A DNA stretch of 40,035 bases. Source: a virus. The stretch lies in the IMG/VR virus record IMGVR_UViG_3300042691_044271, positions 1-40,035 of that record, one strand, 5' to 3'. The number at the start of each line of letters is the position of its first letter. Within the stretch, counting starts at the first letter, position 1. Positions 16,680 through 32,144 of the stretch are shown one piece after another. The position numbers and the translations under genes were made by a program. Below the pieces are notes generated by a model. It ran no database searches. It worked only from the letters and a program-made list of their open reading frames with translations, and had not been told where the DNA came from.

Positions 16680-16690
16680 TGAATATATAA
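16680..16690 (+). promoter_or_regulatory. Candidate phage promoter motif upstream of 16697
   Basis: TGAATATATAA matches TTAATATATAA at 10 of 11 positions and ends 6 nt before the ATG at 16697. It overlaps no gene. Confidence 0.45.
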
Positions 16691-16696
16691 TTATGT

Positions 16697-18337
16697 ATGT
16701 TCAAGTATTTGTACAAATTCCAATCTTTCCTTGAAGCGACTCTCAATATTCAAGAATTAGAAAAACAAGATAAAGCCTCGTCAAAAAAAAGGGGTCAGAT
16801 TCTTGTTAATAAGTTAAAATCAAAAGATCCAATCAAGAAAAAGGATGGGAAAACTGTAACCGTCGACAAGATGTATGTAGATGGTGATTGGGAAGAACCA
16901 TTGAATGTAGTTGGTCAAATAACTACAGGTGGAGAATATGACCAGGAAAAAGGAAAAAAATATTTTATAAAGAATTTTGATACCGAAATGGACCCCAGAA
17001 GGTACAAGTATAGAACTGTTTTCAAAGATGACGAAGGTGACCAGTTTGGTTTAACTCAAATTTTCAAATCTCCTGATTTTGGTTCAAAAGGAGCTGGAGT
17101 TGATACTGGAACTAATGAAGTTCTTCAGTCAATATTTATAGGTATAAGACTTGAATCTAGAGAAGACTTAACACCAGAAAACATTGAAAAAGATTATAGA
17201 AGATATCTTAAAGAAAAGGAGAAATTTCCAATTGTGATGGTTGATGATAAGTTTGAGGATATTGACGAAGAAAAGTTGAAAAAGTTTTTATTAAATAAAG
17301 ATTGGGTTGAAACCTTTTGTCAAATACCTAATTTACTTTTATCCGAAGATAAAGAAGGACAAACTGTTTACAAATCTTATTTGAACCCGAACACAGTTTA
17401 TCTTGTTTACCACACAAGTAACAAATCCGGTAGATCACCTTACAATATATTGAAGAAGAAGTACCTCGAATTTGCAAAAAATGTTCGAGAAATAAATTCA
17501 GATGACGAAGATATGCCTGTAGAGGAAACTAGTAATTTCAAGAATATAAATTTCAATAAATTTTGTCCAGCAGATATTTACCTTTTTGATAATAACGCAA
17601 TTGGTGAATTAGAATCAAGAGTTTCTCAAATAAAAAACATCTATGATCTTGGTGTTTTATGGGATGAATTTTTTGATAAAGGTAAATTAGTTCCTATCTC
17701 ATTGAAAATGGTTAGAGTTGGTGGTGATTACAAAATAATTACTAACGGTGAAATTGGTGCAAAATTGCCACAATTCAGTATAAACAAGTTTGTTATAAAC
17801 GACGATCCGTATAGAGGGATATTCTCAAAAATCAAAACTTCATCTGTTTGGTACTATAGAGGCAAAAATGTGTATAGGGATAGGACTATAAATTTTGATT
17901 CATCCGATACTAGTAAATATACAAACATTGACGGAGAGGTTGAGGGTTCAACTTCAAGACACGGAAAAATTGCTCTAGAACATATAGTCAGATTAATAAC
18001 TAAGAATAAAAGACTTTCCCAAATTCAATCTGTAAACGAACTCAAAAAATTGAACATAGAGGAACTGGACGCAAAATTGAAAATTTTGATTGACTATATC
18101 AAAAAAAATGGTGGTAATTTAGTTGAGTTTAATAAATCAAACCGAGGTTCAAAAATTGAAAATAATGAAAAGAAGTTGATTTCAAAGATACAATCTTTAC
18201 AAGTTATAAAAACATTATTGGATATTTATCTTAAAGATAATGAATCCGCTAATTTTGTAATGACTGAAATTATGCAATTTGCACTTTCTGTAAAAACAGA
18301 TTATTATGGAACCCCAAGATATTTAAGAGTGATTTAA
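16697..18337 (+). CDS. Uncharacterised phage protein with leader-like N-terminus and possible nuclease motif
   Basis: This 546-residue protein is lysine- and aspartate-rich and appears soluble. It starts MFKYLYKFQSFLEATLN, which resembles the capsid-targeting leader of T4 internal proteins. A central block (about 288-335) reads FCPADIYLFDNN, then KLVPISLKMVRVGG; an Asp followed by S-L-K after a hydrophobic strand can be read as a variant PD-(D/E)xK nuclease core. This assignment is weak. The rest has no motif I recognise. It shares the palindromic TTAA stop (18334-18337) with the convergent gene. A plausible role is a virion-internal protein delivered with the DNA. Confidence 0.6.
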   Translation: MFKYLYKFQSFLEATLNIQELEKQDKASSKKRGQILVNKLKSKDPIKKKDGKTVTVDKMYVDGDWEEPLNVVGQITTGGEYDQEKGKKYFIKNFDTEMDPRRYKYRTVFKDDEGDQFGLTQIFKSPDFGSKGAGVDTGTNEVLQSIFIGIRLESREDLTPENIEKDYRRYLKEKEKFPIVMVDDKFEDIDEEKLKKFLLNKDWVETFCQIPNLLLSEDKEGQTVYKSYLNPNTVYLVYHTSNKSGRSPYNILKKKYLEFAKNVREINSDDEDMPVEETSNFKNINFNKFCPADIYLFDNNAIGELESRVSQIKNIYDLGVLWDEFFDKGKLVPISLKMVRVGGDYKIITNGEIGAKLPQFSINKFVINDDPYRGIFSKIKTSSVWYYRGKNVYRDRTINFDSSDTSKYTNIDGEVEGSTSRHGKIALEHIVRLITKNKRLSQIQSVNELKKLNIEELDAKLKILIDYIKKNGGNLVEFNKSNRGSKIENNEKKLISKIQSLQVIKTLLDIYLKDNESANFVMTEIMQFALSVKTDYYGTPRYLRVI

Positions 18338-18753
18338 TTTACTTTTGATTTAACTTCCCAGAAATCGTATGGAATTATATCTCTATAGATATCCTCAAAC
18401 ATATCCATAAAGTATTCAAATTCTGGCCTAAGAGCTTTTTCAAAACTATCAATATAATTTTTTCCCTTACTTGATCCAAAATGTACGTTGTTATCAAAGT
18501 CTGTAATTATGTAAATATCAAAACTTGATTTATTTATGGTAATTTTAGTTCTGAAAATTAATTCATTACCCTCACACCTTAAATCATAAACTTGAACTTT
18601 GATCACATCCTCATCATAAATTCGATTGATTGTTTTGGAATTGAAAAAATAATCTTCATCGTCTTTATTTTTAAGAAAAGGATAAAGACCCAAATTAAAG
18701 CTTTCCTCAGGTGTCATAAGTTCATTAAATTTCTTTATCCCTTTATTTTTCAT
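18334..18753 (-). CDS. Hypothetical protein with leader-like N-terminus (139 aa)
   Basis: The 139-residue protein starts MKNKGIKKFNELMTPEESF, like several neighbours. The body alternates short strands and acidic helices (VQVYDLRCEGNELIFRTKITINKS reduced to its key hydrophobic alternation). No family is recognised. It shares TTAA as a common stop with the gene ending at 18337 and is divergent from the Nudix gene with a 42-nt AT-rich gap. Confidence 0.6.
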   Translation of the reverse strand: MKNKGIKKFNELMTPEESFNLGLYPFLKNKDDEDYFFNSKTINRIYDEDVIKVQVYDLRCEGNELIFRTKITINKSSFDIYIITDFDNNVHFGSSKGKNYIDSFEKALRPEFEYFMDMFEDIYRDIIPYDFWEVKSKVN

Positions 18754-18769
18754 AATCTATATATAATTT

Positions 18770-18780
18770 TAAATATATAA
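18770..18780 (+). promoter_or_regulatory. Candidate phage promoter motif upstream of the Nudix gene
   Basis: TAAATATATAA matches the 11-mer at 10 of 11 positions and ends 15 nt before the ATG at 18796. It lies in the divergent gap and could serve either side. Confidence 0.4.
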
Positions 18781-18795
18781 GTAAATATATTAGGT

Positions 18796-19362
18796 ATGCA
18801 AAAATTCTCAAATTTAAGACCCGAGGAAGAATCAAAGTTTAAAAAGGATGATGTACTTTTTAAAAATGGATCTATGAAAGTAGTCAAGTACGAAGAGTGG
18901 CCAGTTATCACAGACAAAGATGCAGTTATCTGCATTCCGTACCTTACCGAATTGAATAAGTTTATTATCAGACAAGAATACATACCTTCTTACAAGTATA
19001 AAGAAGGTCAACAAAATCACTTGGCTTGTGTCGGTGGTTCAATTGAAATGGGTGAAACACCAGAAGAAGCTTTGTTGAGAGAATTACAAGAAGAAGCTGG
19101 GATTGTTTTAAGGGATGGTTATACAATTGAATTTGATAAACCTTTATTTTTTATGAAAGGTTCGGCTAACAAATTTTATTCCGCCATAATACCTTTGACT
19201 GAAAATGATTATCATGAGGTTGTTATACAAGGTGATGGTAGCTTACTTGAGAAAATGAGTCAAACTGCAAAAGTTGATATTAAATACTTAAACTCTATGT
19301 TCCCGTCGGATGTGGTTACGGAATATATGTTTATGAAATTAAAGCAATTTGCTAATCTTTAA
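18796..19362 (+). CDS. Nudix hydrolase
   Basis: The 188-residue protein has a perfect Nudix box: Gly81, Glu87, then R95-E96-L-Q-E99-E100-A-G102 (GSIEMGETPEEALLRELQEE). The enzyme cleaves a nucleoside diphosphate linked to another group, with Mg ions held by the glutamates. Layout and length resemble ADP-sugar or NAD-type pyrophosphatases, but substrate is not readable. It starts MQKFSNLRPEEE, faintly like the leader motif in neighbours. Its stop shares TTAA (19359-19362) with the convergent gene. Confidence 0.9.
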   Translation: MQKFSNLRPEEESKFKKDDVLFKNGSMKVVKYEEWPVITDKDAVICIPYLTELNKFIIRQEYIPSYKYKEGQQNHLACVGGSIEMGETPEEALLRELQEEAGIVLRDGYTIEFDKPLFFMKGSANKFYSAIIPLTENDYHEVVIQGDGSLLEKMSQTAKVDIKYLNSMFPSDVVTEYMFMKLKQFANL

Positions 19363-20738
19363 TTTAAACCTGTAATTGGTTTCCTACCCTTTCTTTCAAT
19401 ACCATTGATTGCCATTGACTTAACGTCGTTATTAAATTGATTATGGTCCGCATCTTCCATATAATCTAAATGAACTCTCAAATTATTATCATCAAGGTAA
19501 TTATTTGAAATATATTCGTGTATAACATATCCCATCCACTCATCTTGACCTTCATATCTTTCTAACCAATCTATATTGAATTTCATAGTCAAATAAGGTG
19601 TCCCATCTTTCCATTCAGTTTTGGTTATTCTGGTTTGTAGTTGTTCTTCTATAACTTTCTTGAGAGATGATACAATTTCATCTTGGAGTAAATCGACTGT
19701 AGCACTTACTCCCATATCAGTCCACATAGACCTGATATCGCTAATATAATCGGAGTCAATCTCATCTAATAGTTTTCCAATATTGACTAATCCCACTTTT
19801 TGAACTCTCTCTATTAGTTGTTCTTTTGTGGTAATACCAACACTGGTTAGTGTTTCGTACTCATCTTCATCTACTTCCTTGATTTGTTCAAAATCATCAA
19901 TTAATAAATCCACCAACAATTTTACTGTATCTACTTTTAGATGGTACTGAAATAATGTCTCTACGCTTACTTGGTCTGAATAATCCCAATATCTTTCCCA
20001 AAGAGCATCAAAACCATTTTTATTTGTTAATATGTCATAGTAGTCATCTTTGTGCGAGATTAACCACTCTGCGTATTTTTCTGCAGGATAAGTCAAGTAA
20101 GCTTGTTCTTTATCATCATAAGTTATATCCACTTTATCGTCCAAATTATGATATTCAATAATCATCTTGTCTGTAAAATAAACTGGTTTATACCAAATAA
20201 GATTCATGTTCAATTCCGAAATTGTCATGATATCATCTGGTTCTAATTCATAATCCAGACCACCTTTTATTTTAATATCTTTTAGATTTAAAGAACCTTC
20301 ATCATCATAAAATTCTATGGTTTTGAACTTTGGTTTTACTCGTTTTACAAATGAAGTAAGTACATAAGTTAAATCCTCATCAGATACTTGGTTTGGTTCA
20401 GATCCCCTTGATATTTTTGGGAAAATTTCCACCCTTATACAAGGTGTTAGTTCCCTTTTGTTTCCTGGAACTGCCAAATTTTTAGGACCTTCATCTTTAT
20501 TTGATTCATCTATGAATGAATAGAATATATTGATATCATATCCACCTTCTTCTAATTCGAATAATAAATCTTCAATTTCTTCTAACGATATTGGCCAAAA
20601 CTTTTGATCACTTTCTGGTCCACCGCCCACTCCCCTTCCGTATTTCAATTCCGGATGTTCCCACATTGTGTTAGAAAACAAGTCAAGTTGCTTTTCTTGT
20701 AATAAAAACTGTTTCCAATCTTTGAGATGCGTTGACAT
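19359..20738 (-). CDS. Uncharacterised acidic protein with leader-like N-terminus (459 aa)
   Basis: This 459-residue protein starts MSTHLKDWKQFLLQEKQL, similar to the leaders at 16697, 21383 and 31776. It is very acidic, with many D and E residues and long predicted helices between about 260 and 370 (VKLLVDLLIDDFEQIKEVDE). There is no catalytic motif I recognise and no membrane segment. It follows the 210-residue gene by 12 nt in the same direction, so the two are likely co-transcribed. A virion-internal or DNA-mimic-like acidic protein is possible but speculative. Confidence 0.6.
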   Translation of the reverse strand: MSTHLKDWKQFLLQEKQLDLFSNTMWEHPELKYGRGVGGGPESDQKFWPISLEEIEDLLFELEEGGYDINIFYSFIDESNKDEGPKNLAVPGNKRELTPCIRVEIFPKISRGSEPNQVSDEDLTYVLTSFVKRVKPKFKTIEFYDDEGSLNLKDIKIKGGLDYELEPDDIMTISELNMNLIWYKPVYFTDKMIIEYHNLDDKVDITYDDKEQAYLTYPAEKYAEWLISHKDDYYDILTNKNGFDALWERYWDYSDQVSVETLFQYHLKVDTVKLLVDLLIDDFEQIKEVDEDEYETLTSVGITTKEQLIERVQKVGLVNIGKLLDEIDSDYISDIRSMWTDMGVSATVDLLQDEIVSSLKKVIEEQLQTRITKTEWKDGTPYLTMKFNIDWLERYEGQDEWMGYVIHEYISNNYLDDNNLRVHLDYMEDADHNQFNNDVKSMAINGIERKGRKPITGLN

Positions 20739-20750
20739 AGAAGAATTTTT

Positions 20751-21383
20751 TTATTCAGGACTCCAAGATCCATCTCTACCACTTTTTTGAAAACCAGACC
20801 TTCTTATTACAACTTCAAATTCATTCACTTCATATCTGTCTTTTCCCGCTTCTAATTTATTGTAAAATCCATTTAGTCTTTCTGCCTTTGAAAGTGTAGA
20901 TTTTAGACCACCAACATTCAGTCTTTTAGCTCTATCGCTAAATGACTTTGTGTATTTGATAAAATTTTCCACAGTATCATCATACTTTTGGAGTTTTATT
21001 TCATACTGATATGGATTACTATAAATAATAAATCCATATCCATCATCAATTGCATCTAAAAACATATCTTCTATTTCAGCAACTGTGGGGAAAGCACTTC
21101 TTTCCTCTCTTATCATATTATAGACTTGGAACATACTGTCTCTGAATTCGAGACTACCTCTATTGACCTCTCCATAAAGTTTCTGAGTGGCTGCCTTATA
21201 CTCATCATATCCACTTTCATAAAAGTTAAATAAATTCTCAGTTTCTGGATTATTAAAAAAAAGATCCGATATTGAGTTTGTTGGTTTGGAATCTTCAGAG
21301 AAATAATAAACAATTTCCATTGCCATTTCCTCTGTGAATCTACCACTTGTTGATTCATTGAATATTTTCCACCCCTTTATCAT
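20751..21383 (-). CDS. Uncharacterised protein with leader-like N-terminus (210 aa)
   Basis: The 210-residue protein starts MIKGWKIFNESTSGRF, the clearest example here of the short leader. The middle is helical and acidic (IEDMFLDAIDDGYGFIIY); the end is basic. No family is recognised. A perfect copy of the candidate phage promoter motif ends 4 nt upstream. It is the first gene of a minus-strand pair with 19359-20738. Confidence 0.6.
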   Translation of the reverse strand: MIKGWKIFNESTSGRFTEEMAMEIVYYFSEDSKPTNSISDLFFNNPETENLFNFYESGYDEYKAATQKLYGEVNRGSLEFRDSMFQVYNMIREERSAFPTVAEIEDMFLDAIDDGYGFIIYSNPYQYEIKLQKYDDTVENFIKYTKSFSDRAKRLNVGGLKSTLSKAERLNGFYNKLEAGKDRYEVNEFEVVIRRSGFQKSGRDGSWSPE

Positions 21384-21387
21384 AAGG

Positions 21388-21398
21388 TTATATATTAA
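21388..21398 (-). promoter_or_regulatory. Candidate phage promoter motif (perfect copy) upstream of 21383 (-)
   Basis: The minus strand reads TTAATATATAA exactly, ending 4 nt before the ATG at 21383. It overlaps the stop codon of the SpeD gene. Confidence 0.55.
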
Positions 21399-21820
21399 AA
21401 CTTATCCTCAAAAAACTCTGCTGGTTCACCCAATACAAGGTCTTCTCTTGGAAAATCTTTACCTCTCTGTATCAAGTTTTTCTCAACTCTTTCTGGTTTG
21501 AATAAGTCTATGATAAACTTTTCAGCTTTCTCAACATCAAAAGGTTTACAAGAAAACATATCTATGAATGTATAACCCTTATCTTCAAATGAGTGTATTG
21601 ATAAGTGACTTTCAGATATAATGACAATTCCCGTGATTCCTTTATCTTCCGGCACCAAACCAGAATAAGGAAAAACATAAGGTTGTGTTATTGGAGTCAT
21701 TCCAATAATTTCGGGTAAGGTCTTGAGTAGATCGAAATGTAAATTATAGTCTTTTAATATTTCTTTTGGACAACCAATAAGATCTAGAGTTAAATGAGGT
21801 CCGAAAATGTAGTTTTTCAT
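21395..21820 (-). CDS. speD: S-adenosylmethionine decarboxylase proenzyme
   Basis: The 141-residue protein is a bacterial-type SpeD. The self-cleavage site is Glu70-Ser71 in SESHLSIHSFE. His76 and Cys91 sit at +5 and +20 from the pyruvoyl serine, exactly the spacing of Ser63, His68 and Cys83 of the Thermotoga maritima enzyme. Processing yields beta and alpha chains and a pyruvoyl cofactor. The product, decarboxylated SAM, is the aminopropyl donor for spermidine. All key residues are present, so activity is expected. It lies 20 nt downstream of the FkbM methyltransferase gene, also a SAM user, and is probably co-transcribed. Confidence 0.93.
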   Translation of the reverse strand: MKNYIFGPHLTLDLIGCPKEILKDYNLHFDLLKTLPEIIGMTPITQPYVFPYSGLVPEDKGITGIVIISESHLSIHSFEDKGYTFIDMFSCKPFDVEKAEKFIIDLFKPERVEKNLIQRGKDFPREDLVLGEPAEFFEDKF

Positions 21821-21840
21821 TTCACAAATTTTCTAATTTT

Positions 21841-22437
21841 TTAGTGCCATTCTGTAAACTCTATCCCCATATTTTGAATTTTAGAAATTAGATCTTGTCT
21901 TATTTCTAAGTAATGTGGTGGGAAAAAGTGAGCGTGGAATTCAACAAATAACTTCTTTATTTTACGAATGTGACCTGTTTCTATTAGTTTTTCTAGTACT
22001 ATAAATTCACTACCCTCGATATCCATTTTACAAATTATATTCGATTGTTCTGGTAAATGTCCTACAAATTCCGGAAAATTGATACTTTCAATTTGGATCG
22101 GTTCGATATTACCACATCTTTCCAAATATTGATTTTTCATATCATCGATAACAATCGATGAGGCGTGCCCATCAACATTTGATACACCATCTGTGGGTGA
22201 ATTTGACATACTCTTTACATGATCTTCTTGTTTGAAAAAAACATAACCGTCTTCAATCCAAACAGCTTTCTCAATTGGTGTTATGTTTGGATAATTTTTA
22301 GTACGTTCTACTATCATACAAGCAGGATTCGCTTCAAATGAGTAAATATGATAAGTATCGTCAATAATACCCATACTCAAAAATTGGTTTATTCCTTCTC
22401 CAAGATGAAAGCCACAATCCAAAAATATATTTTGCAT
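21841..22437 (-). CDS. FkbM-family SAM-dependent methyltransferase
   Basis: The 198-residue protein shows the FkbM pattern: SAM motif I FLDCGFHLGEG (residues 5-15), the acidic strand end FEANP (34-38) and KMDIEGSE (137-144). FkbM members O-methylate sugars or small natural products. With three glycosyltransferase-like genes in the window, glycan methylation is the simplest reading. It is somewhat short for the family (usually 200-250 residues) but all core motifs are present. It precedes SpeD by 20 nt. Confidence 0.88.
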   Translation of the reverse strand: MQNIFLDCGFHLGEGINQFLSMGIIDDTYHIYSFEANPACMIVERTKNYPNITPIEKAVWIEDGYVFFKQEDHVKSMSNSPTDGVSNVDGHASSIVIDDMKNQYLERCGNIEPIQIESINFPEFVGHLPEQSNIICKMDIEGSEFIVLEKLIETGHIRKIKKLFVEFHAHFFPPHYLEIRQDLISKIQNMGIEFTEWH

Positions 22438-22498
22438 TTAAAAATTATTTATATTTACATTTATAAAATAAATAAACGGAAAGTTTCTAAAAATATAT

Positions 22499-22529
22499 TT
22501 TGGTTTTAGTAAACAATGTATTATCTTTG
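22499..22529 (+). promoter_or_regulatory. Bacteroidota-type promoter for the second metallopeptidase-like gene
   Basis: TTTG at 22499-22502, a 19-nt spacer and TATCTTTG at 22522-22529 match the host consensus. The ATG at 22569 is 39 nt downstream. The -7 octamer is identical to that of the sigma-factor promoter. Confidence 0.75.
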
Positions 22530-22568
22530 TATTAAGAATAATAACGCACTTTTTAAAAACAACAATTA

Positions 22569-23750
22569 ATGGATATAAGAAAAAAATTCCTAAAACTAAC
22601 TAAACGAACTTATCCCTATGGAACCGAATCTCAATTAGTTTCCTTTTTACCAAAGGGTTCCTTCAAAGACACACACGGTAACTATTATTATAAAATCGGC
22701 AATTCGAGAACTGCATTCGCTTGTCATTTGGACACGGCGTGTAAAACACAGACTATTGTTAATCATAAAATCGAGAAAAACATCATTTCTACCGATGGGA
22801 AATCTATCCTTGGAGCAGATGACAAAGCTGGTATGACAGTACTACTTTTCATGATTGAAAAAAATATACCCGGATTGTATTGTTTTTTCATTGGCGAAGA
22901 GGTTGGTTGCATCGGATCCGGAAAAGCTTGTTATGATTACCAATTCAGAGATTATAATAGAATGGTATCATTTGATAGAAGAGGTACAAAATCAATCATC
23001 ACTTTCCAATCCTCCAAAAGGTGTTGTTCAGATGAGTTTGCTAATGAACTGGCAACTAGAATGAATAAGTTTGGACTAACTATGGAAGCTGATAATACCG
23101 GTGTTTATACTGATTCTGCTGAATTTGTAGATGTAATTCCTGAATGTACAAATATATCAGTTGGTTATTACCGTGAACACACAAATTTTGAACATCAGGA
23201 TATTGACCACTTGATTAAACTTTGTATCGCGGTCACAAAAATCGACTGGGAAACCCTACCAACACAAAGAGATAAAACTAAAATTGAATATAAACCATAT
23301 TCTTATGGATCTTATGGTAGTAAAGGAACCTCCTCTTATGATCATGATTCGAGTAAATATGGTAATAGATCTGGATATAGCACTTATGACTCTTGGGCGG
23401 GTTGGGATAAATCACCTGCTAAATCTAGAAGAAAAAAATATCATAAAGAATATGGTTACTATGATGATTTTTACTTTGAAGATGAGGAAAAGTATGATAA
23501 GTATAGTTATGACCTAGACACTGGATATGAAAAGGAGGGTAGATCTTATTACGATAGTCTTGACAATGACATAACAGATTATCAAAGTAACAAATATGTA
23601 AACAAATATACCTCTCTGAGAGAGATGGTTTACGATGATAGATTAAACGAAGAAGAAATAATCTGTCTGAAAGATCAACACTTTGATTTGACTGATAGGG
23701 AACAACTCGAAACTTATATAGAATTAAGGAATCAGGCTTGTTCTCTATAA
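22569..23750 (+). CDS. M20/M28/M42-like zinc metallopeptidase-type protein, copy 2
   Basis: This 393-residue paralogue of 11124-12236 keeps the ligand set: HLDTA (His53, Asp55), GADDKAG (Asp84), GEEVGCIGS (Glu110, Glu111), SFDRRGT (Asp136) and SVGYYREH (His204). Residues 1-225 align with copy 1 throughout. The C-terminal part differs: it is a tyrosine-, serine- and glycine-rich low-complexity tail (about 240-345), then a short helical end. Copy 1 has an acidic tail in that place. Both copies have their own host-type promoter, which implies early expression. The substrate is unknown. The stop overlaps the convergent gene by 19 nt. Confidence 0.82.
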   Translation: MDIRKKFLKLTKRTYPYGTESQLVSFLPKGSFKDTHGNYYYKIGNSRTAFACHLDTACKTQTIVNHKIEKNIISTDGKSILGADDKAGMTVLLFMIEKNIPGLYCFFIGEEVGCIGSGKACYDYQFRDYNRMVSFDRRGTKSIITFQSSKRCCSDEFANELATRMNKFGLTMEADNTGVYTDSAEFVDVIPECTNISVGYYREHTNFEHQDIDHLIKLCIAVTKIDWETLPTQRDKTKIEYKPYSYGSYGSKGTSSYDHDSSKYGNRSGYSTYDSWAGWDKSPAKSRRKKYHKEYGYYDDFYFEDEEKYDKYSYDLDTGYEKEGRSYYDSLDNDITDYQSNKYVNKYTSLREMVYDDRLNEEEIICLKDQHFDLTDREQLETYIELRNQACSL

Positions 23751-23950
23751 GGACAAATAATTTCTGATGATTTTATAGATTCATCGGGGGCATTTTGTAT
23801 CTTTGATTCAGTAATTTTGTGAGTAATCGAGAATTTGTTTCCTTTTTTATCTATAATCTCTACCGGTGTGACCATGTTGTTGTACCAATATTCAATTAAA
23901 ACCTTATCACCAATTTTAAAATAGTTTTTGTACTCTAAAATAAATTTCAT
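23732..23950 (-). CDS. Small hypothetical beta-rich protein (72 aa)
   Basis: The 72-residue protein starts MKFILEYKNYFKIGDKVLIEYW. It looks like a compact SH3-like or KOW-like barrel (FKIGDKVLIEY..., VEIIDKKGNKFSI). Function is unknown. It overlaps the end of the metallopeptidase-like gene and is divergent from 23968 with a 17-nt gap that holds a perfect phage motif. Confidence 0.6.
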   Translation of the reverse strand: MKFILEYKNYFKIGDKVLIEYWYNNMVTPVEIIDKKGNKFSITHKITESKIQNAPDESIKSSEIICPYREQA

Positions 23951-23954
23951 ACTT

Positions 23955-23965
23955 TTATATATTAA
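23955..23965 (-). promoter_or_regulatory. Candidate phage promoter motif (perfect copy) in a 17-nt divergent gap
   Basis: TTAATATATAA on the minus strand ends 4 nt before the ATG at 23950. Read on plus it is TTATATATTAA, 2 nt before the ATG at 23968, so it may drive both genes. Confidence 0.5.
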
Positions 23966-23967
23966 TT

Positions 23968-24942
23968 ATGAGAAAAGCAATTCAGATCACAAGAAACCTT
24001 ACCGTTGACAATGAGTTCCTTCAATTTTTATTAAACAACTCATGTTTGATTTCAAATATCTTCATAAATTTGGAATTTGAAAATGAAATTAATTTTATAT
24101 CACCGACACAAGATACTGATAAGGTATCGTACCTACCCGCCTCAAAAAATAAGGGTGGTGATAATTTTGATCCATTTGGTGATGGGGTGGGTAGAGTAAA
24201 TCTTAGAATTGGTAGATTCTTAAATAAATTTATACCTAAAGAAGTTGTGGATAAATTTAATATTACAAAATCAGATATCGAGTCTTTTGTAAATTTATAC
24301 AAATCCTGGTTTGATAAGAGTAAGTTTATAATTAAGTTGGTAGAAGGAGAGGAGATAAGAAGGTGGTATGATGAAGAAAACTATTTTACCCCAAATGGTT
24401 TTGCCATTGGCACACTTTGGAATTCATGTATGCGTTATAAAAAACGGTTGAAATTTTTAGATTTATATTGTAAGAATCCAAATATAAAAATGATCGTCAT
24501 TTTACAAGGAGAGGGTGACAATTTGAAAGTCAGAGCTAGAGCTTTACTTTGGGAAAATGTAAATTTAATAAAAGACTTTTCACAAACTTTGCCCGAAAAT
24601 ATTAAAATCATGGATAGAATATATTCAGTATTTGATTCTGACGTAATAACTCTTAAAAAATGGGCTAATGATAATGGTTACATTCCAAAATTTGAACAAA
24701 ACGCAAAATCTCACCAATTTTTTGACATTAAGGGTGAAGTAGTCAGATTGAGGTGTTCGGTTCAATTAGAAAAAACAAAGTTTATTAGTTATCCCTACTT
24801 AGACACATTCCCATTCTTCTCTTGGCATGATGGTATTTTATGTAATGATGAATACAACTTCAATTGGGAATATAAACTTGTACAGGCTGATGGTACCTTG
24901 GAAAGACAAGAAGTGGAGGAAGATACAGACGATGGATGGTAA
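23968..24942 (+). CDS. Conserved phage hypothetical protein with S-C-M-R motif (324 aa)
   Basis: The 324-residue protein has a central segment IRRWYDEENYF, GTLWNSCMRY, then LYCKNPNIKMIVILQGEG and KVRARALLW. I know this order (small residue-C-M-R, NP-x-hydrophobic strand, RALLW) from uncharacterised proteins in large phages. No enzymatic role is established to my knowledge. The end is acidic (EEDTDDGW). It stops directly against the PhoH gene (TAATTA at 24940-24945). Confidence 0.65.
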   Translation: MRKAIQITRNLTVDNEFLQFLLNNSCLISNIFINLEFENEINFISPTQDTDKVSYLPASKNKGGDNFDPFGDGVGRVNLRIGRFLNKFIPKEVVDKFNITKSDIESFVNLYKSWFDKSKFIIKLVEGEEIRRWYDEENYFTPNGFAIGTLWNSCMRYKKRLKFLDLYCKNPNIKMIVILQGEGDNLKVRARALLWENVNLIKDFSQTLPENIKIMDRIYSVFDSDVITLKKWANDNGYIPKFEQNAKSHQFFDIKGEVVRLRCSVQLEKTKFISYPYLDTFPFFSWHDGILCNDEYNFNWEYKLVQADGTLERQEVEEDTDDGW

Positions 24943-25722
24943 TTAACTTGTTCTGTATCTTTTCATTATCTCTATAAGGAAGGGGTCTCTAACTATCTCA
25001 TCATCAGAAAATTCAATAAAACCTATACCTGGTACATCTTTGAGTCTGTGAATCGCATCTTCCAATCCACATTTTTCTCCTTTAGTTAATTTTAAATCAA
25101 TTTGATCTGTGTCTCCGAGTATTACTAATTTTGAATTTTCTCCCATCCTCGAAATGAATGTTTTCATTTCGGTAACTGTGCAATTTTGACTTTCATCAAA
25201 AATACAAAAAGAACCAATTGATTGCCCATCGGAAGTGTATTGGCCGAAAGTGGAACCTCTCAGAAAATTAAGTACAGTTTCTTTTATAAATCCATTATCC
25301 TTCAAATATTTAGTTTGATAACTACCTATTAGTTTTATTAGGTTATCATAAAAGTGTGTATAGTAAGCAAGCGTCTTTTCGTTAATATCACCTGGTAAAG
25401 CACCTAATCCCTTTTGTGAAGTAATCTCAACTATTGGTTTGGTCAAAATGATTTGGCCAATATTCATATTTTTGTCTTTTAAACATTCTAAACCTGCCAT
25501 AAGTGATATGAGTGTCTTACCAGTACCTGCGCTACCACGAACAAATGTTATTCTATTGTTCAAAATTGTATCAAAAAGTTCTTTTTGTTTTTTATTTTTG
25601 AATTTACAATTTATTTTATATTGAAAGGTGCGAAGCTGGTCTTTCAAATAGTTATCCATCTCCTGCATTTCCTGCATCTCTTGCTCAATTGTTTTTTTAG
25701 CCCTTGGTTTAATTTTTGGCAT
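24943..25722 (-). CDS. phoH: PhoH-like P-loop ATPase
   Basis: The 259-residue protein has the PhoH fold: Walker A GSAGTGKT (63-70), IILTKPIVEI, the GALPGD segment, Walker B FCIFDESQN, and the sensor LGDTDQID. The ending (IVRDPFLIEIMKRY) is typical. PhoH proteins are nucleotidases or RNA-helicase-like ATPases and are common in large phages; their role in infection is unsettled. A methionine/glutamine-rich N-terminus (about 10-25) precedes the domain. A variant of the phage motif lies 18 nt upstream. Confidence 0.93.
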   Translation of the reverse strand: MPKIKPRAKKTIEQEMQEMQEMDNYLKDQLRTFQYKINCKFKNKKQKELFDTILNNRITFVRGSAGTGKTLISLMAGLECLKDKNMNIGQIILTKPIVEITSQKGLGALPGDINEKTLAYYTHFYDNLIKLIGSYQTKYLKDNGFIKETVLNFLRGSTFGQYTSDGQSIGSFCIFDESQNCTVTEMKTFISRMGENSKLVILGDTDQIDLKLTKGEKCGLEDAIHRLKDVPGIGFIEFSDDEIVRDPFLIEIMKRYRTS

Positions 25723-25740
25723 TTTTTTAAGGTTTTTTTA

Positions 25741-25751
25741 TTATATATTCC
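25741..25751 (-). promoter_or_regulatory. Candidate phage promoter motif variant upstream of phoH
   Basis: The minus strand reads GGAATATATAA, a 9 of 11 match, ending 18 nt before the ATG at 25722. Confidence 0.35.
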
Positions 25752-25777
25752 CAAGTTCCCTATCCGAGAAGGGTGTT

Positions 25778-25788
25778 TTAATATATAA
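25778..25788 (+). promoter_or_regulatory. Candidate phage promoter motif (perfect copy) upstream of 25806
   Basis: TTAATATATAA ends 17 nt before the ATG at 25806 and would drive the small gene and the giant virion gene behind it. Confidence 0.55.
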
Positions 25789-25805
25789 ACAAAGAATTAC
25801 ATTCA

Positions 25806-26024
25806 ATGTTAAAAGAGAGAGAAGAATTGATCTATGATTTGATATTTTCTGAGGTAACTGAATATAAGATAAATATTTCGGAATATATCGAGGATATCTA
25901 TAAGTATGATAGATTCATTGATGATATTAAGAATGTTTTGAAAAAATCCAAAGTAGCAATCGTTAAAGAAAAGGTTGACCTAGAAGAAGCGAATGTAATT
26001 TGGAATTTAAAAGTAAAAAAATAA
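25806..26024 (+). CDS. Small hypothetical protein (72 aa)
   Basis: The 72-residue acidic-helical protein (starting MLKEREELIYDLIFSEVTEY) has no recognised motif. It is 3 nt upstream of the 1910-residue virion gene and shares its promoter, so it may be a chaperone or assembly partner of that protein; this is context only. Confidence 0.65.
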   Translation: MLKEREELIYDLIFSEVTEYKINISEYIEDIYKYDRFIDDIKNVLKKSKVAIVKEKVDLEEANVIWNLKVKK

Positions 26025-26027
26025 AAA

Positions 26028-29000
26028 ATGTGGAAAAAAAACGCAGATACTGGTAAATGGGTTCTACAAGTTGAATCTATATCAAAAGATACTTATGAAT
26101 TTTATAAGCAAGAATTAAGTTCTGTAAAACTTTACTCAAAGTGTTTAAGTGGATCTACATATTTGAAAATTAATGATTTTGATAATTTATATCCAGAATT
26201 ACAAACTGAAAGGATTGGATTTTACATTGGCACACAAAGTGTTCCATTGAGAGGACCGGCAATCAGGTTGAATGATATCACAAGACGTGAATTTTATGAT
26301 AAGTATTTGAAGGAAGATGCTTTCACACTTAAAAATTTATTTACACCTGAAAGATTACTTACAGATCAGGGTAAAAATTTCAAATATGTTGATGCTGCGA
26401 CTACAAAATCGATTTCTTTAACCCAAGGTGCTAATTTGACCATTGACGGATTTGTATTGAGGACTGGTCAAAGATTGCTTGTCAAGGATCAAATAACAGT
26501 AGCTGCACTGTCCCCAAATGTGGATGTTGATAATTATTTTACGAATGTTATAACTGTATCCAATTACTATTTCTTGAATGAAGATGATAATAAAAATTAT
26601 TACTATTATAACGAAGAAAATGGAATTTATAAGTATGACGGACTTTCTTTGATACGCGAGAATGATCTTTCAGATTATGAAAGTTCCTATAAATACGCTG
26701 CTTATGTCAGAAATGGTACCTTAAATGGTGGTAAAGAATTTCATTTACAGAGACAAAGGTTTGGATATTTTCCGGTAGATGATTTTAATACCGAATTTAA
26801 AGAATCTAAAAATTGGGTACTTAGACACCGTGTCGACTATAACAATATTTATGACGTGAATATCTATGATGTTATAAATCATGCAACTCAATCAATTTTC
26901 GATTTCACTACTGCCAAGACTTATTCTATACCACAAAGGACTATAAGTGTTGGAGAATTTGGTGTGATATTCAACAATCAAGAAAGGATTTCAAGTACCG
27001 CGACATTTAGTATCACTAATGTAATACCGAATAAATATAAAATAAATTTATATTCTATTGTAAATTGTACAAAATTCTATTGGATATGTGGTGAGGAAGG
27101 TCATATTCTTAAAGTTAACAAAATAGATTTTACGATTGAAAAAATTAAAATAGACGAGGAGTTACCTTTCATGTCTGTAGATTTTTATAATGATCAATTT
27201 GGAATGGTGGTTGGTAAATTCAATAACATTTACTATACAAGAGATTTTGGTGTGAAATGGTTTAAACTTAAAATCGATGAATTTGAAGAATATTCTTATA
27301 ATAGAGTCGTCCACCTTAATGAAAATACAACTTATGTGGCTGGTGAGACTGGTGTTTTCATCGAATTTTTGTATGTAGAAGGTAATTGGACAGCTTATAA
27401 TAGAGCTATTGTTAAGGATTTAAATGATACTGACGAATATTTGATGGTTGACGATATAAACGATTTGAAAAAATCAAAATGGACAACATTTAAACCATTT
27501 ACATTCTCACAAAATCAGTCATCCACTTTCGAAGGTAGAATCGTATATGACAACTCCCTAGTGGATAATTACAAAGTCATGGAAATTTCAATAAGTTCAC
27601 CAGAATTGGAACCTACGAGTGCATTTCTTTCAAATACCACTGCCAAATTTGCTATAGGAGTTTCAGTAAGTAATACACTCGGTTTTCAAAGGAATAATGC
27701 AGTATGGGGACAGAGTGGATACCCATTATTTTCAAATTTTGTTGATATGTGGAGAGATAACAATGCTAGTTTCCGAAATACTAAACCAGCCACAAAATTT
27801 AGTTTCACATTTAGTTTGCCTACTGACGACTGGGGAAATTTAGTAAATTCAAATTACCTTGTAGACGTAGAACTCACTACAAATTATGACGTTGGACTTG
27901 GTGGTGTTGGTGGTGGTTTATATCGGAGTAATACAAAATATCAGTTTCAAACCTACAATAACGACTTTCTTTTGATGTCTGCTAATAGTGGAGTGGCGGT
28001 TTGTTATGATATAGATAGTTCATTTAGAAATTTAGATAATAATTTTATATTCTTATCCTTCACACAAACAACTGCTGACATTAAAACAATAGAGAGATAT
28101 AGGAGTGACATTTACATAGGTACGGATAGATTGTATAAATTTCCAGTTACTCTTTTGGGAACTTACTCCGACCCAAGTGTAAATGAGGCTAAAATCACAC
28201 TTACTCAATCTGAAAGAACATATGTTAATAGACTCGTATCCTCCACACATTCTTTATATCTTGTTGGTAATGGGGGGCTTAATAATTATATAAATTTTGT
28301 AGATAAAGAAAACCCTACCTTTTCTTCACCCTTAGATCCGTCTTTTAATGGTAGAATAAAATCAAAATTTTTGATTCTAGACTATGATATTGCTTCAAAA
28401 GTAAATTTTTTCACCGATGAGGGAGAATATCGTTTACCAGAGGCTGCTAAATTTGATTTTTTTGATTTTTCATCTTCACCAACAACATTATTTTTCATAG
28501 GTCCACCAACTGATGGTCAAAAGACGTGGTTGGATTATTCGAAGGATTCACTCAAAACTTTTAGATATTATACATTAATGTCTGACTCAAATGTTGTGAA
28601 GTATAGTTCAACATTTTCTTATAAATTTCCCACACTCAGCGATGAGCCATTTACCATTCAACCAAACCGAATAGGTAGAACTCAAAGTTATCTCGGACTA
28701 AATTCGGCAAATTCTCTCGCTCCCCATATTTTTTCAAGTACTCAATCAAAATATTTCCATCCAGTAACTTCGCAATCAAATTGGGTGCCAACATTGGCAG
28801 CTGTTCAACAGGCACTGTCGGGATTTCCTGCGGGCACATCCACAAATGAAACGTATCTGATATTATTTGACGAGATTGGGATAGTCATAAGAAAACACAC
28901 TTCATTGCTTAAGTGTAATAGGGACAATAGAACCGATGTTGGGGATATCATACAGATAAATTCAAATGTATTCGATGGTACCTTTATGATAAATAAAATG

Positions 29001-31760
29001 TACTGGTATTCGGGACCAGCTTCAAATGCTGGATCCTTCATACAATTTGCTGGTAGACCAACCAACTTTCCCGGTAGTGGTTTGATATTTGAATTTCAAT
29101 ATTTTTACCACAACTTAAATTCCACTATCACAGCCGAACTCACATCTCTATCAGCTAATATCAAAATACGGAATCTAAACAACTACTCTTCTTTTAATGA
29201 TTTGTGTAGAAATTTAAGCTTTCATCCTGTTGGAGAAGCTTTCGGTATAACTCTTTCTGATTCTTTCGCATATTTGACTGCTAAATTTAATGAAAAAACA
29301 TCTTATTATAATTTACAATCCCAAGTTGGGATAATAAAAGCGGTGCCCGATATTAAATTCATGGGATATAAAGAAACATTTCTTGATTTTGGATTCTCAC
29401 CAACTTATAATATAAGTGATTATCTTACAAAATTGAATCCCCAAACATTTACTTCTAGTAAGAGGTTTTCGGTTTTGCCAACTTATTCCGTGGTTGGTAG
29501 TGCGGGTGGTTGGACCAGAAATACGGCTTATTTTAGTACAGCCCCTTTAGCGACTCAAACAGAGTCCAATCTTTTGAGGTTTGGTGAAAACTTGAGAAGT
29601 CAATGGGAATCCCTACTACCATATACATTTGTTGATATTATTGCGCAAGGTAATTCAACAAGATTTGATCTACATCAATATTTATTAGTTGATAAACATG
29701 AGCAACAGGTTACATTCATTGAGGGTGCTAATCAAATAGTTGGCACAGCGTATGTTTTAGAATTTGACAAGCAATTGCCAATAACTCAGCCTATAAATTT
29801 ATACCATATTATGTCAAGAAATTTGATCGGTACGATAAGTAGTGATTTACAATTATTGAACAATATTCATAGGAGTGAAGTGAATAAAAGTGTACAGACA
29901 GGTTTTACTTTCAGAGATTCTCAATCTACGAGGATCAACAAATTTCCGACAGAATCATACATGAAGGCTCTTGTTTCCGACTATGATATACAAGAAAATA
30001 TCAGTGCGATTTTGTATACTGATAAAGATTTTGACATATCATTAAATGTTATAAATGTTGAAAAAGAAATTGTAAATAGTGTTGACCAAGTCTCAAGTGG
30101 TAATATTAGTGGATTCACAAATAAAATGAGACTAAAGCCAAAAAATGCCTCCGCTACTCAAAGTTTTAGTAAAGGTGATCTAATTAAAGTTGAATTTGGT
30201 GAGTCTAATAATGTGATAAGGTTTAGTGGGTATCAAACAGTTATTGGCACCGATCGAGATTATATATTTACGAGTAAGGATTATAATACATCTGTCGACC
30301 CAATATTCACTAGCGCAACAATATCATTCATTAGGAGAGATCCATTTTTTAATTACGAACCAATCGATTTGTTCAAAGCCGGATTGGACTTAAAGGTTTC
30401 TAGATCAATTGAGATTCTTCCAGAGAATACCATACAAAGTTTGGGAACTTACAGTCTCGTAAATGTTGATCTAAATAGGTATAAGTTTGAGTTCTTAGAC
30501 GGATTGTCATTAGAGGAAGTATTTAGAAATAACCATTGGTTACTAGAAGCAGAAGTTAGAAACGCTAAGGTTGGTCAAAATATCAATACCAATGAATTGA
30601 TCTGGTATTCTGGTACTTGGAAATGTGGTAGATGGTTTGGTGGTAGATGGATTTCGGGAACTTGGATGAGTGGTGACTGGTATGGTGGTGAGTGGAACTC
30701 ACTGCCGGTGAAAAATAATAAAGTTTTTGACGATAGTCTGACAGACGAACAAAATCCAAAATTATCTAAATGGTATGGTGGTAGGTGGTTCGAAGGTACT
30801 TGGAATGGTGGTAGTTGGTACTCTGGTAGACGGTATGCTGGTGACTGGAACTCTGGTATATGGTACAACGGCATATGGAATGATGGTAATTGGAACAATG
30901 GTAAATTCCTTGGTGGAATCTGGGTAAATGGTAAATGGAAGACTGGGATACTGAATTGTGATTCAAAACCTTCTTATTGGCTATATGGTGAATTCCAAAG
31001 TGGGGATTTTGAAAATGGGATGTGGTATAATGGTTTTTTTGGAAATGACCAAGGATCGTTATCAAGATTTGGAACTAGATCAACAAACACAAGACCTTCG
31101 ATATGGCAGAGTGGAAAATGGATAGATGGAGAATTTCATTCTGGTCTTAATATAGACACAAAAACACAATTGCCAATAACTTCTAAAGTGCACAAATACT
31201 CTGTGTGGAAAACGGGTCTTTGGAACAAGGGTAGTTGGTATGGTGGTATATCTTATAATATCGATTTTAGGGGTGGTGTCTGGTATGGGGGTGTATTGGA
31301 GGAGATTCAAGTTGTCGGTGTTGATAAAATTCAAGACACAAATCCAAATTTTATTTCAAACAATAGAATCTATCTGAATGGATCATACCTATTCAACCCT
31401 GGTGATGAAATTTGGATAATTGACGATGATAGGGGAATGACATTTTCAGTACTCGGTAGTAACCAGATACCAAGGTCTTATAGGATTAATAAAATTTCTG
31501 AACATGAAACAACAATTGGTAAATTTACTGGACTGTACCTCAATTACAATTTGAATTCTTTGAATGTTCCAGGATCTGCAGATTTGAATGAATATACACC
31601 GGAAAATGGAAAAATTGGCGAGCTGGGGGTTAGAGTTGTGAGTAGATTCAAGGATAGTACCTGGAAAACAGGTATTTGGACCAACGGTATCATGCAGGGT
31701 GGATTCTTTGAAACTGGTATCTGGTACAATGGGATAATGGACGGAAATTGGGGTCAGTAA
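26028..31760 (+). CDS. Giant virion/tail-fibre protein with W-x-x-G repeats
   Basis: The protein has 1910 residues and opens MWKKNADTGKWVLQVESIS. Residues about 340-450 resemble a sialidase-type propeller blade: YWICGEEGHILKVN, GMVVGKFNNIYYTRDFGVKW (an Asp-box T-x-D-x-G-x-x-W) and YVAGETGVF. A long N-, S- and T-rich beta region follows. From about 1524 to 1760, and again at 1876-1910, the chain is built of five-residue units W-x-x-G-x (WFGGRWISGTWMSGDW, WNSGIWYNGIWNDGNW), sometimes broken by insertions. This should form a regular beta structure, perhaps a solenoid. Size, composition and neighbours fit a tail fibre or baseplate spike that contacts the host. No close family is recognised. Confidence 0.82.
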   Translation: MWKKNADTGKWVLQVESISKDTYEFYKQELSSVKLYSKCLSGSTYLKINDFDNLYPELQTERIGFYIGTQSVPLRGPAIRLNDITRREFYDKYLKEDAFTLKNLFTPERLLTDQGKNFKYVDAATTKSISLTQGANLTIDGFVLRTGQRLLVKDQITVAALSPNVDVDNYFTNVITVSNYYFLNEDDNKNYYYYNEENGIYKYDGLSLIRENDLSDYESSYKYAAYVRNGTLNGGKEFHLQRQRFGYFPVDDFNTEFKESKNWVLRHRVDYNNIYDVNIYDVINHATQSIFDFTTAKTYSIPQRTISVGEFGVIFNNQERISSTATFSITNVIPNKYKINLYSIVNCTKFYWICGEEGHILKVNKIDFTIEKIKIDEELPFMSVDFYNDQFGMVVGKFNNIYYTRDFGVKWFKLKIDEFEEYSYNRVVHLNENTTYVAGETGVFIEFLYVEGNWTAYNRAIVKDLNDTDEYLMVDDINDLKKSKWTTFKPFTFSQNQSSTFEGRIVYDNSLVDNYKVMEISISSPELEPTSAFLSNTTAKFAIGVSVSNTLGFQRNNAVWGQSGYPLFSNFVDMWRDNNASFRNTKPATKFSFTFSLPTDDWGNLVNSNYLVDVELTTNYDVGLGGVGGGLYRSNTKYQFQTYNNDFLLMSANSGVAVCYDIDSSFRNLDNNFIFLSFTQTTADIKTIERYRSDIYIGTDRLYKFPVTLLGTYSDPSVNEAKITLTQSERTYVNRLVSSTHSLYLVGNGGLNNYINFVDKENPTFSSPLDPSFNGRIKSKFLILDYDIASKVNFFTDEGEYRLPEAAKFDFFDFSSSPTTLFFIGPPTDGQKTWLDYSKDSLKTFRYYTLMSDSNVVKYSSTFSYKFPTLSDEPFTIQPNRIGRTQSYLGLNSANSLAPHIFSSTQSKYFHPVTSQSNWVPTLAAVQQALSGFPAGTSTNETYLILFDEIGIVIRKHTSLLKCNRDNRTDVGDIIQINSNVFDGTFMINKMYWYSGPASNAGSFIQFAGRPTNFPGSGLIFEFQYFYHNLNSTITAELTSLSANIKIRNLNNYSSFNDLCRNLSFHPVGEAFGITLSDSFAYLTAKFNEKTSYYNLQSQVGIIKAVPDIKFMGYKETFLDFGFSPTYNISDYLTKLNPQTFTSSKRFSVLPTYSVVGSAGGWTRNTAYFSTAPLATQTESNLLRFGENLRSQWESLLPYTFVDIIAQGNSTRFDLHQYLLVDKHEQQVTFIEGANQIVGTAYVLEFDKQLPITQPINLYHIMSRNLIGTISSDLQLLNNIHRSEVNKSVQTGFTFRDSQSTRINKFPTESYMKALVSDYDIQENISAILYTDKDFDISLNVINVEKEIVNSVDQVSSGNISGFTNKMRLKPKNASATQSFSKGDLIKVEFGESNNVIRFSGYQTVIGTDRDYIFTSKDYNTSVDPIFTSATISFIRRDPFFNYEPIDLFKAGLDLKVSRSIEILPENTIQSLGTYSLVNVDLNRYKFEFLDGLSLEEVFRNNHWLLEAEVRNAKVGQNINTNELIWYSGTWKCGRWFGGRWISGTWMSGDWYGGEWNSLPVKNNKVFDDSLTDEQNPKLSKWYGGRWFEGTWNGGSWYSGRRYAGDWNSGIWYNGIWNDGNWNNGKFLGGIWVNGKWKTGILNCDSKPSYWLYGEFQSGDFENGMWYNGFFGNDQGSLSRFGTRSTNTRPSIWQSGKWIDGEFHSGLNIDTKTQLPITSKVHKYSVWKTGLWNKGSWYGGISYNIDFRGGVWYGGVLEEIQVVGVDKIQDTNPNFISNNRIYLNGSYLFNPGDEIWIIDDDRGMTFSVLGSNQIPRSYRINKISEHETTIGKFTGLYLNYNLNSLNVPGSADLNEYTPENGKIGELGVRVVSRFKDSTWKTGIWTNGIMQGGFFETGIWYNGIMDGNWGQ
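30600..31300 (+). repeat. W-x-x-G-x pentapeptide repeat region inside the giant fibre gene
   Basis: About 235 codons encode tandem or near-tandem units with Trp (sometimes Tyr or Phe) at position 1 and Gly at position 4. The DNA is correspondingly rich in TGGxxxxGTGGx-type units, which produces long meaningless reading frames on the minus strand. A shorter second group lies at about 31650-31757. Confidence 0.88.
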
Positions 31761-31761
31761 C

Positions 31762-31772
31762 TTAATATATAA
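31762..31772 (+). promoter_or_regulatory. Candidate phage promoter motif (perfect copy) upstream of 31776
   Basis: TTAATATATAA ends 3 nt before the ATG at 31776, just after the stop of the giant fibre gene. Confidence 0.5.
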
Positions 31773-31775
31773 TTA

Positions 31776-32144
31776 ATGAGATTTTTTAGATTTAATCAAT
31801 TTATATTAGAAAAAAATGAAAACGACTCTACGTTTTCCGATGTGATAGGTGATTTAAATGACCTAATTGAAAAATCATTAAAGACTTCGGACCAAAAAAC
31901 AAGGGAAGATTTTATATCTGCCTATCTGAGGGATCCGGAGAAAACACAGATAGAGGGACTTATTAATGATTCAGACATTTATGAATTTTATTTGAAATAT
32001 AGGAACGAAATAGACCAAAAACTATCTGATATGAGATTTTATGAAGAAAAACCATCGGATATGGACTCATTTAGTCTATATGACTACCTTGTTAAGGGAA
32101 CTAAGTCTGCAATTAAAGACTTTTTGGAATCAAGTAAATCGTGA
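31776..32144 (+). CDS. Small acidic protein with leader-like N-terminus (122 aa)
   Basis: The 122-residue helical protein starts MRFFRFNQFILEKNENDS, another example of the leader motif. The rest is acidic helices (DLNDLIEKSLKTSDQKTRED). No family is recognised. Its location inside the structural block fits a virion-internal protein. It overlaps the convergent membrane-protein gene by 15 nt. Confidence 0.65.
   Translation: MRFFRFNQFILEKNENDSTFSDVIGDLNDLIEKSLKTSDQKTREDFISAYLRDPEKTQIEGLINDSDIYEFYLKYRNEIDQKLSDMRFYEEKPSDMDSFSLYDYLVKGTKSAIKDFLESSKS

Follow-up and report, generated by a model that had tools for sequence, protein, structure and literature searches.

Four proteins encoded in a 40,035-base stretch of viral DNA, IMG/VR record IMGVR_UViG_3300042691_044271 at its full length (in the following called the window), start with a short leader that is also carried by many otherwise unrelated proteins of related huge phages. 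We consider it probable that it functions as a capsid-targeting sequence (CTS) like that of the internal proteins (IPs) of phage T4, used here at large scale. The T4 CTS is already known; new are the scale, a protease-scaffold protein whose repeats come very close to the T4 heptad, and the co-occurrence of these repeats with the leader set. No earlier description of the leader or of the repeat scaffold in huge phages was found in the open-access literature. An earlier note on this DNA had proposed such a leader for five proteins of the window and had read them as a set of injected effectors. The capsid-targeting part of this interpretation gains support from the enrichment of the leader, the fused protease-scaffold, their co-occurrence, a promoter-like element and the agreement with T4 residues. 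The injected effectors go beyond the data, as some of the proteins may be degraded core components.

Genomes and leader profile

The window is collinear with positions 159-198 kb of IMG/VR contig 3300023174_000033 (G001, 464,605 bp) and partly collinear with positions 297-314 kb of the 642-kb huge phage LR756502 (W01). A further relative is 3300008459_011050 (G002, 178 kb). These three genomes were compared with LR756501 (735 kb), LR756500 (462 kb, first 400 kb), T4, cyanophage S-SSM5, Tenacibaculum phage PTm1, Flavobacterium phage immuto and Prevotella phage Lak-A1 (first 400 kb). Gene calls follow a simple longest-ORF (open reading frame) rule, and Lak was translated with TAG as Gln. The leader profile was cross-validated, i.e. 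trained on one phage set and tested on the other, with the column of the start Met excluded and a cut-off score of at least 8. A first profile including the Met column gave inflated counts and was superseded.

The leader across the huge phages

The leader itself is almost certainly real. Measured against chance, the yardstick named by the earlier note, it is clearly in excess at the N-termini of the relatives' proteins: the profile matches 72 of 1002 genes in W01 (6.9 with shuffled N-termini, 3.5 internally), 70 of 1064 in LR756501 (7.5 and 5.3), 30 of 546 in G001 (3.0 and 2.6) and 10 of 197 in G002 (1.0 and 0.7). From the shuffled counts, about 10% of the listed leader proteins are expected by chance. 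In LR756500, 23 leader proteins were found against 4.0 expected, many of them starting with MKYI(K/L)EYEEF(I/L)LEA. Nor is the leader a special mark of the gene cluster in the window: in the larger relatives W01, LR756501 and G001, about 6-7% of all genes carry it. Its consensus is K-[KHN]-[YF]-x-[QEKD]-[FY]-[ILNV]-[NEK]-E, with [FYW]xx[FY][ILVN]xE as the conserved residues. An unsupervised search for four-residue patterns recovered a motif of this type with high z in W01 (K.I..F..F, 97 seen and 4 expected), LR756500 (KF...F..F, 29 and 0.9) and G001, and no such motif in T4, S-SSM5, PTm1, immuto or Lak.

Could the leader be a by-product of N-terminal composition or of a translation-start bias in AT-rich genomes, where starts are rich in K, N, I and F? 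The leader-bearing genomes have a GC content of 24-32%, and most motif residues have AT-rich codons. However, shuffling the same N-terminal residues abolishes about 90% of the matches, and the Glu and the residue order are conserved across orthologues. Genomes of matching composition were also checked: Lak (26% GC), PTm1 (30%) and immuto (35%) gave 3, 3 and 2 leader matches against 2.3, 0.9 and 0.5 by chance and thus no excess. Since these AT-rich controls are without a leader set, an effect of composition is strongly disfavoured, and we regard this explanation as scarcely credible.

The statement that the bodies behind the leader are otherwise unrelated holds genome-wide, with 70 body families for the 72 leader proteins in W01, 29 for 30 in G001, 57 for 70 in LR756501 and 15 for 23 in LR756500. 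An example of a separable leader is presented with the protein W01 491690, which carries MKKLHRYNSFIKESLTTQEGRH (about 20 residues) in front, whereas the same protein is without leader in G002 (30926) and in LR756501 (213882).

Experiments on the T4 CTS have shown that targeting depends on residues 4 and 7 (Tyr, Phe) and processing on residues 8 and 10 (Ile, Glu) (Mullaney and Black, reviewed in PMC9026906); the protease gp21 cleaves after L/I-x-E (PMC9026906). The conserved columns of the huge-phage leader correspond to these residues. Applied to T4 as a control, our profile recovered ipII, ipIII and gene 61.1. Aromatics occupy both targeting positions in 22/26 (G001), 50/60 (LR756501) and 36/57 (W01) leaders, and a canonical [IL]xE follows in 12/26 (G001), 31/60 (LR756501), 23/57 (W01) and 18/21 (LR756500).

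These figures bear on the idea that the leader is solely a protease-processing signal of late proteins, with the targeting information located in the bodies. It is in keeping with this idea that [ILMV]xE resembles the L/I-x-E signal of T4 gp21 (PMC9026906) and that the protease-scaffold protein described below has the highest or second-highest [ILMV]xE density among the large proteins of each of four genomes. Yet the feature conserved best in the leader is its pair of aromatics, responsible in T4 for targeting rather than for processing, and this pair persists in leaders of an F-N-E subtype that lack the exact site. As the bodies are unrelated, shared targeting signals within them are unlikely, and altogether we find a mere processing signal very unlikely.

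Two clusters of leader genes were observed in passing. At positions 312960-318055 of LR756500 (L219), nearly all adjacent genes start with MKYI(K/L)EYEEF, mostly with different bodies, which gives this region the look of a cargo island. In W01, a cluster of small genes at 418540-425885 starts with MKHLKK(F/Y)NES or near it (F-N-E subtype), again with unrelated bodies.

A putative protease-scaffold protein of the relatives

The earlier note had recommended a search for the prohead protease, and a gp21-like protease is indeed present in the relatives G001, W01 and LR756501. These genomes encode, in T4 order, a gp20-like portal (E 1e-24 to 4e-29), a large protein whose N-terminus is gp21-like and the major capsid protein. 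The N-terminal half aligns with T4 gp21 (hhalign E 1.2e-5), with conserved His (GEFDHP) and Ser (VSSRA) motifs. For the predicted model of the whole protein, the best Foldseek match was T4 gp21 (5jbl; prob 1.00, E 0.018), the model being of low confidence in the protease half; sequence searches of the PDB with the protease or the fusion profile found no phage protease.

The other half consists of about ten tandem 14-residue repeats YSEY(I/L)AENLDKNI, near to the T4 heptad YQEFIAE, and is predicted as a single helix of 162 residues with modest confidence. Because a gp21-like half stands beside a repeat half, we named the protein protease-scaffold fusion. From its position, the fusion and the repeats, we infer that the C-terminal half is a prohead scaffold. 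In all 28 of 28 IMG/VR relatives with a protease motif called, 9-15 repeat copies were counted, and at most one in neighbouring genes. Of the internal motifs [FYW]..[FY][ILMV].E, 10/43 (G001), 11/55 (W01) and 14/63 (LR756501) fall into the fusion protein (P < 1e-13 each). Whereas a profile with KK columns failed to single out the scaffold repeats, this core expression did so.

After the protease domain a conserved NES, mostly (I/L)NES, is found, which is a plausible self-cleavage site. Similarly, the N-terminus of the major capsid protein in W01 and G001 contains EYAE(F/Y)H(Q/S)INEN, plausibly the site of propeptide cleavage.

The likeness between leader and scaffold repeats might be explained in another way, if the leader sorted proteins to a different phage structure (replication compartment, membrane or tail) and both elements resembled each other as short amphipathic helices. 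A helix motif of the type aromatic-x-x-aromatic is simple, and the second aromatic is F in the leaders and Y in the scaffolds. On the other hand, four of the seven heptad positions agree in residue class, including the protease Glu, and in each of four genomes the leader-like motif is far more abundant in the fusion protein than in any other. In addition, leader sets accompany repeat scaffolds, as described in the following, and the nearly identical T4 tag is proven to target the head (PMC9026906). Sorting to another structure is hence unlikely in our view.

Co-occurrence of leader set and repeats

A search of 50,697 phage records detected the repeat array in only six of them, all from uncultured huge phages. 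LR756500 combines degenerate repeats with its 23 leader proteins. Gp21-like proteases are present in Lak, PTm1 and immuto as well, and in the huge phage Lak and the cultured phage PTm1 the protease likewise forms the N-terminus of a large fusion; unlike those of the huge phages with leaders, these fusions contain no YxxYIAE array, nor was one found in immuto, and the phages are without a leader set.

A motif specific for Lak, IFES, was considered as a possible counterpart and rejected, since it belongs to a paralogous cluster with GVFETNSSS starts. At positions 311040-313486 of Lak-A1, five adjacent and apparently paralogous genes start with MKxxxRxxVFETNSSS; they are unrelated to the leader.

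Proposed mechanism and comparison with known systems

According to the mechanism that we propose, the tagged proteins would be produced late in infection alongside the head proteins. Their leader, [KR]x[FYW]xx[FY][ILVN]xE, would form a short amphipathic segment imitating one heptad of the prohead scaffold, the latter being the C-terminal part of the protease-scaffold fusion with its long helix of about ten 14-residue repeats. The two aromatics of the leader would dock into the scaffold core, and the cargo would be carried into the prohead. There, the gp21-type protease domain would cut after the Glu of (I/L/V)xE in the leader, in the scaffold repeats and in the propeptide of the major capsid protein, whereby the core would be destroyed and the cargo freed inside the head. 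At the next infection the packaged cargo would leave together with the DNA and could act before any phage gene is expressed.

T4 IPI-III (MKTYQEFIAE/A, cut after E) are alike in many respects: a short N-terminal leader, unrelated bodies, a gp21-type protease, aromatics at positions 4 and 7 and, in about half of the huge-phage leaders, I/L and E at positions 8 and 10. The tagged genes may, like those of the T4 IPs, be late genes. However, T4 has three IPs (two of which the profile finds, in addition to 61.1), whereas the huge phages have about 30-70 tagged proteins each. Furthermore, the huge phages possess a second leader subtype, F-N-E-S, and T4 is without a scaffold array of the same heptad. 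For the huge phages, cleavage and injection, and likewise docking and packaging, are inferred.

With T4 gp21 and gp22 the relatives share the protease residues, the gene order portal-protease-capsid and the best Foldseek match. In T4 both proteins are separate, while in the relatives the protease and a scaffold-like half are joined in one protein, this half being a tandem heptad array without detectable gp22 homology. The phages phiKZ and SPN3US are giant phages as well; their protease is gp21-related, cleavage is Glu-specific, and a large number of their head proteins are cleaved. Their propeptides mostly exceed 100 residues (PMC5694885), whereas the leader described here has about 10-15 residues and is T4-like.

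Several points weigh against the leader being a CTS used at large scale. The 40-kb window is without head genes, so the link to the head module rests on the relatives. No homology of the scaffold half to gp22 was detected (hhalign E 0.068, prob 0.8%), and the scaffold role is therefore based on position and repeats. About half of the leaders, including those of 16697 and 21383 (-) in the window, are without an exact [IL]xE (F-N-E subtype and other variants), which makes cleavage less sure in these cases. The tagged share of the genes lies far above the T4 precedent. Since T4 employs its CTS in the absence of a comparable repeat array, such repeats are no strict requirement. Finally, PTm1, Lak and immuto represent only a small number of lineages for this contrast, and of Lak and LR756500 the first 400 kb were covered.

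If this CTS reading is correct, it provides a rule by which head-packed proteins of huge phages could be predicted from sequence only, hundreds of them in metagenomes and most without known function. It also offers a concrete candidate for the docking partner of the T4 CTS, given that the repeats of the putative huge-phage scaffold are almost identical to the T4 heptad. Moreover, it proposes a scaffold for giant phages, for none of which a gp22 counterpart had been confirmed as of 2017 (PMC5694885).

Candidate cargo among the tagged proteins

Pfam matches among 123 tagged proteins comprise methyltransferases, PPK2, ClpP, T4-type RNA ligase, DeoC, Nudix, radical SAM, DHH, RNase_T and NFACT-R. 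Some of these enzyme matches may lie within the chance fraction; in the tagged enzymes that were scanned singly, the Pfam domain starts downstream of the leader. Acb1-like/2H phosphoesterases are tagged in G001, G002 and W01, with one orthologue each.

In a further explanation, the tag does lead into the core of the prohead, yet the majority of tagged proteins are structural components there, comparable to T4 gp67 and gp68, and are kept in the head or degraded rather than injected. Several tagged proteins are small, acidic and located beside head genes (W01 231351-231869 and 216806-217009), and the tagged protein 31776 of the window sits among tail genes. Many other tagged bodies, however, are enzymes without an obvious structural role (Acb1-like phosphoesterase, DeoC, radical SAM, methyltransferase, DHH, exonuclease), and the families are highly varied, as would be expected for delivered cargo. 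We therefore rate a predominantly structural set as possible, though rather doubtful.

The most far-reaching version of the targeting model is a general loading of cargo: with a prohead core formed by a protease-scaffold fusion of tandem capsid-targeting heptads, any protein gaining a one-heptad leader would be loaded, cut free and injected, and up to 60 or more unrelated proteins would be delivered, including anti-CBASS-like phosphoesterases and other enzymes whose action could precede transcription of the first phage gene. For this joint claim we see evenly balanced chances. The cargo list (Acb1-like phosphoesterase, RNA ligase, Nudix, methyltransferases) points to early counter-defence. Since T4 IPs are inhibitors of type IV restriction enzymes (PMC12373910; PMC9391042), such a role is, by analogy, a reasonable guess for part of the tagged set.

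A promoter-like element upstream of leader genes

The element AATATATA is strongly over-represented upstream of genes (205 seen and 19 expected in W01), and it or a near variant precedes the majority of the examined genes for portal, protease-scaffold protein, capsid, terminase and sheath. It was found upstream of 71/185 leader genes compared to 435/2453 others (odds ratio 2.9, P 2e-10; genes of related phages are not independent). In the window, a candidate late promoter had been noted at three of the five named genes, and AATATATA is in fact located upstream of 16697, 21383 (-) and 31776, only 4-7 nucleotides from the start (Table 1). The enrichment exists at both close (0-12 nucleotides) and distant (13-35 nucleotides) positions, the cases in the window being close ones. 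By contrast to AATATATA, the classic T4 late promoter TATAAATA was not enriched upstream of leader genes.

Across W01, LR756501, G001 and the window, AATATATA falls into two distance classes, about 0-10 and about 15-30 nucleotides before the ATG. The close class would yield almost leaderless transcripts.

Leader proteins of the window

All five open reading frames named in the earlier note are present at their positions. The pattern [KR].?[FYW]..F[ILMVN] occurs within the first 16 residues of 5/38 window genes, compared to 0/690 of the 16-mers from protein interiors and 0.42 expected when the N-termini are shuffled (Poisson P = 8e-5). Four of these five matches are named proteins, 16697, 20738 (-), 21383 (-) and 31776; their leaders are kept in the orthologues, and all four have both targeting-position aromatics, three apart. 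The fifth named protein (18334..18753, minus strand, KKFNELM) was excluded from the leader set because the matching segment is internal in the divergent G002 homologue, at residue 58 behind an N-terminal extension. The segment thus forms part of the body; it is also without the second aromatic and has the lowest profile score (3.2). The fifth match to the pattern, the deoxyhypusine-synthase-like 5922, was rejected as a chance match inside a conserved enzyme.

Table 1. Leader proteins, leader cores and promoter-like elements in the window
Feature	Position	Strand	Detail	Basis
Leader-bearing protein, 546 aa, function not assigned	16697..18337	+	leader K7-F-Q-S-F-L-E-A14
Leader core of 16697	16715..16738	+	aromatics F8, F11; E13	sequence
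Leader-bearing protein, 459 aa, function not assigned	19359..20738	-	leader K6-D-W-K-Q-F-L-L-Q-E15
Leader core of 19359-20738	20694..20723	-	aromatics W8, F11; L13-Q-E15	sequence
Leader-bearing protein, 210 aa, function not assigned	20751..21383	-	leader K3-G-W-K-I-F-N-E-S11, F-N-E subtype
Leader core of 20751-21383	21354..21377	-	W5, F8, E10	sequence
Leader-bearing protein, 122 aa, with the window's best leader	31776..32144	+	R5-F-N-Q-F-I-L-E12; profile score 13.2
Leader core of 31776	31788..31811	+	F6, F9, I10, E12: all four T4-mapped residue classes	sequence; PMC9026906
Possible further leader protein, 72 aa	23732..23950	-	MKFILEYKNYF; absent from the earlier note
AATATATA promoter-like element	16682..16689	+	7 nt before ATG 16697	motif scan
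AATATATA promoter-like element	21389..21396	-	5 nt before ATG 21383	motif scan
AATATATA promoter-like element	31764..31771	+	4 nt before ATG 31776	motif scan

An [IL]xE site is present in 31776 (ILE) and 20738 (-) (LQE), while 16697 and 21383 (-) have F-x-E variants. The leader of 31776, RFNQFILEK, corresponds to KFYEFIAEK in G001 and RYSQFIKEA in W01. For 20738 (-), DWK(T/Q)FLL(Q/K)EK is common to the window, G001 and G002 (orthologues DWKTFLLQE and DWKTFLLKE). The leader of 21383 (-) is weak by profile score (4.8), whereas its G001 orthologue reaches 12.2; GW(K/N)xFNE is retained in G001 and G002 (orthologues GWNTFNES and GWKKFNEN). In 16697 the E comes one residue too early for an [IL]xE site, and the G001 orthologue reads HKFQSFFEA. 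A G002 paralogue of 16697 has the N-terminus MKLKRFNES. The body of 16697 is distantly similar to SSSM5_176 of cyanophage S-SSM5 (26% over 166 amino acids, E 2e-6), which is without such a leader.

Searches of Pfam and PHROGs with the window cargo yielded nothing convincing, and the four cargo proteins are without a recognisable domain. The AlphaFold model of the 546-residue protein had a mean pLDDT of 36 and was not usable.

The small protein 23950 (-) may be a further member of the leader set, as judged from its N-terminus. Its aromatic pair is retained, the cleavage Glu is absent in the window and G001, and the orthologues read MKFILEYKLFFQE in G002 and MKFLLEYKSFYN in W01. MKFILEYKNYF resembles LR756500 leaders beginning with MKFILEYEEFLFEN and MKFILEYEKFLNKS.

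Other genes of the window

Further genes of the window attracted our attention. A deoxyhypusine-synthase-like gene (5922-6890, plus strand) and an AdoMet-decarboxylase-like gene (SpeD; 21395-21820, minus strand) were both recognised by eye and are both present in G001 and G002; their joint presence in one phage suggests a phage polyamine metabolism. The gene at 7911-8756 (+) is tRNA-ligase-like (phrog_29758), with 56% identity to a protein of the Prochlorococcus phages P-SSM7 and P-SSM2, and also occurs in huge phages. The frame of a ClpA/B-type ATPase (13197-14612, plus strand) ends soon after GPTGVGKCVTKDTLVTL, which resembles an intein beginning; the alignment with the G001 orthologue continues through the frame end, and the homologues in W01 and G002 extend to about 700 amino acids. 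The gene at 26028-31760 (+) encodes a protein of 1910 amino acids with tandem W-x-x-G-x-W repeats (SGTWxxGxWYxGxW). It is conserved in G001, G002 and W01, and its probable role is that of a large fibre or baseplate component of the virion.

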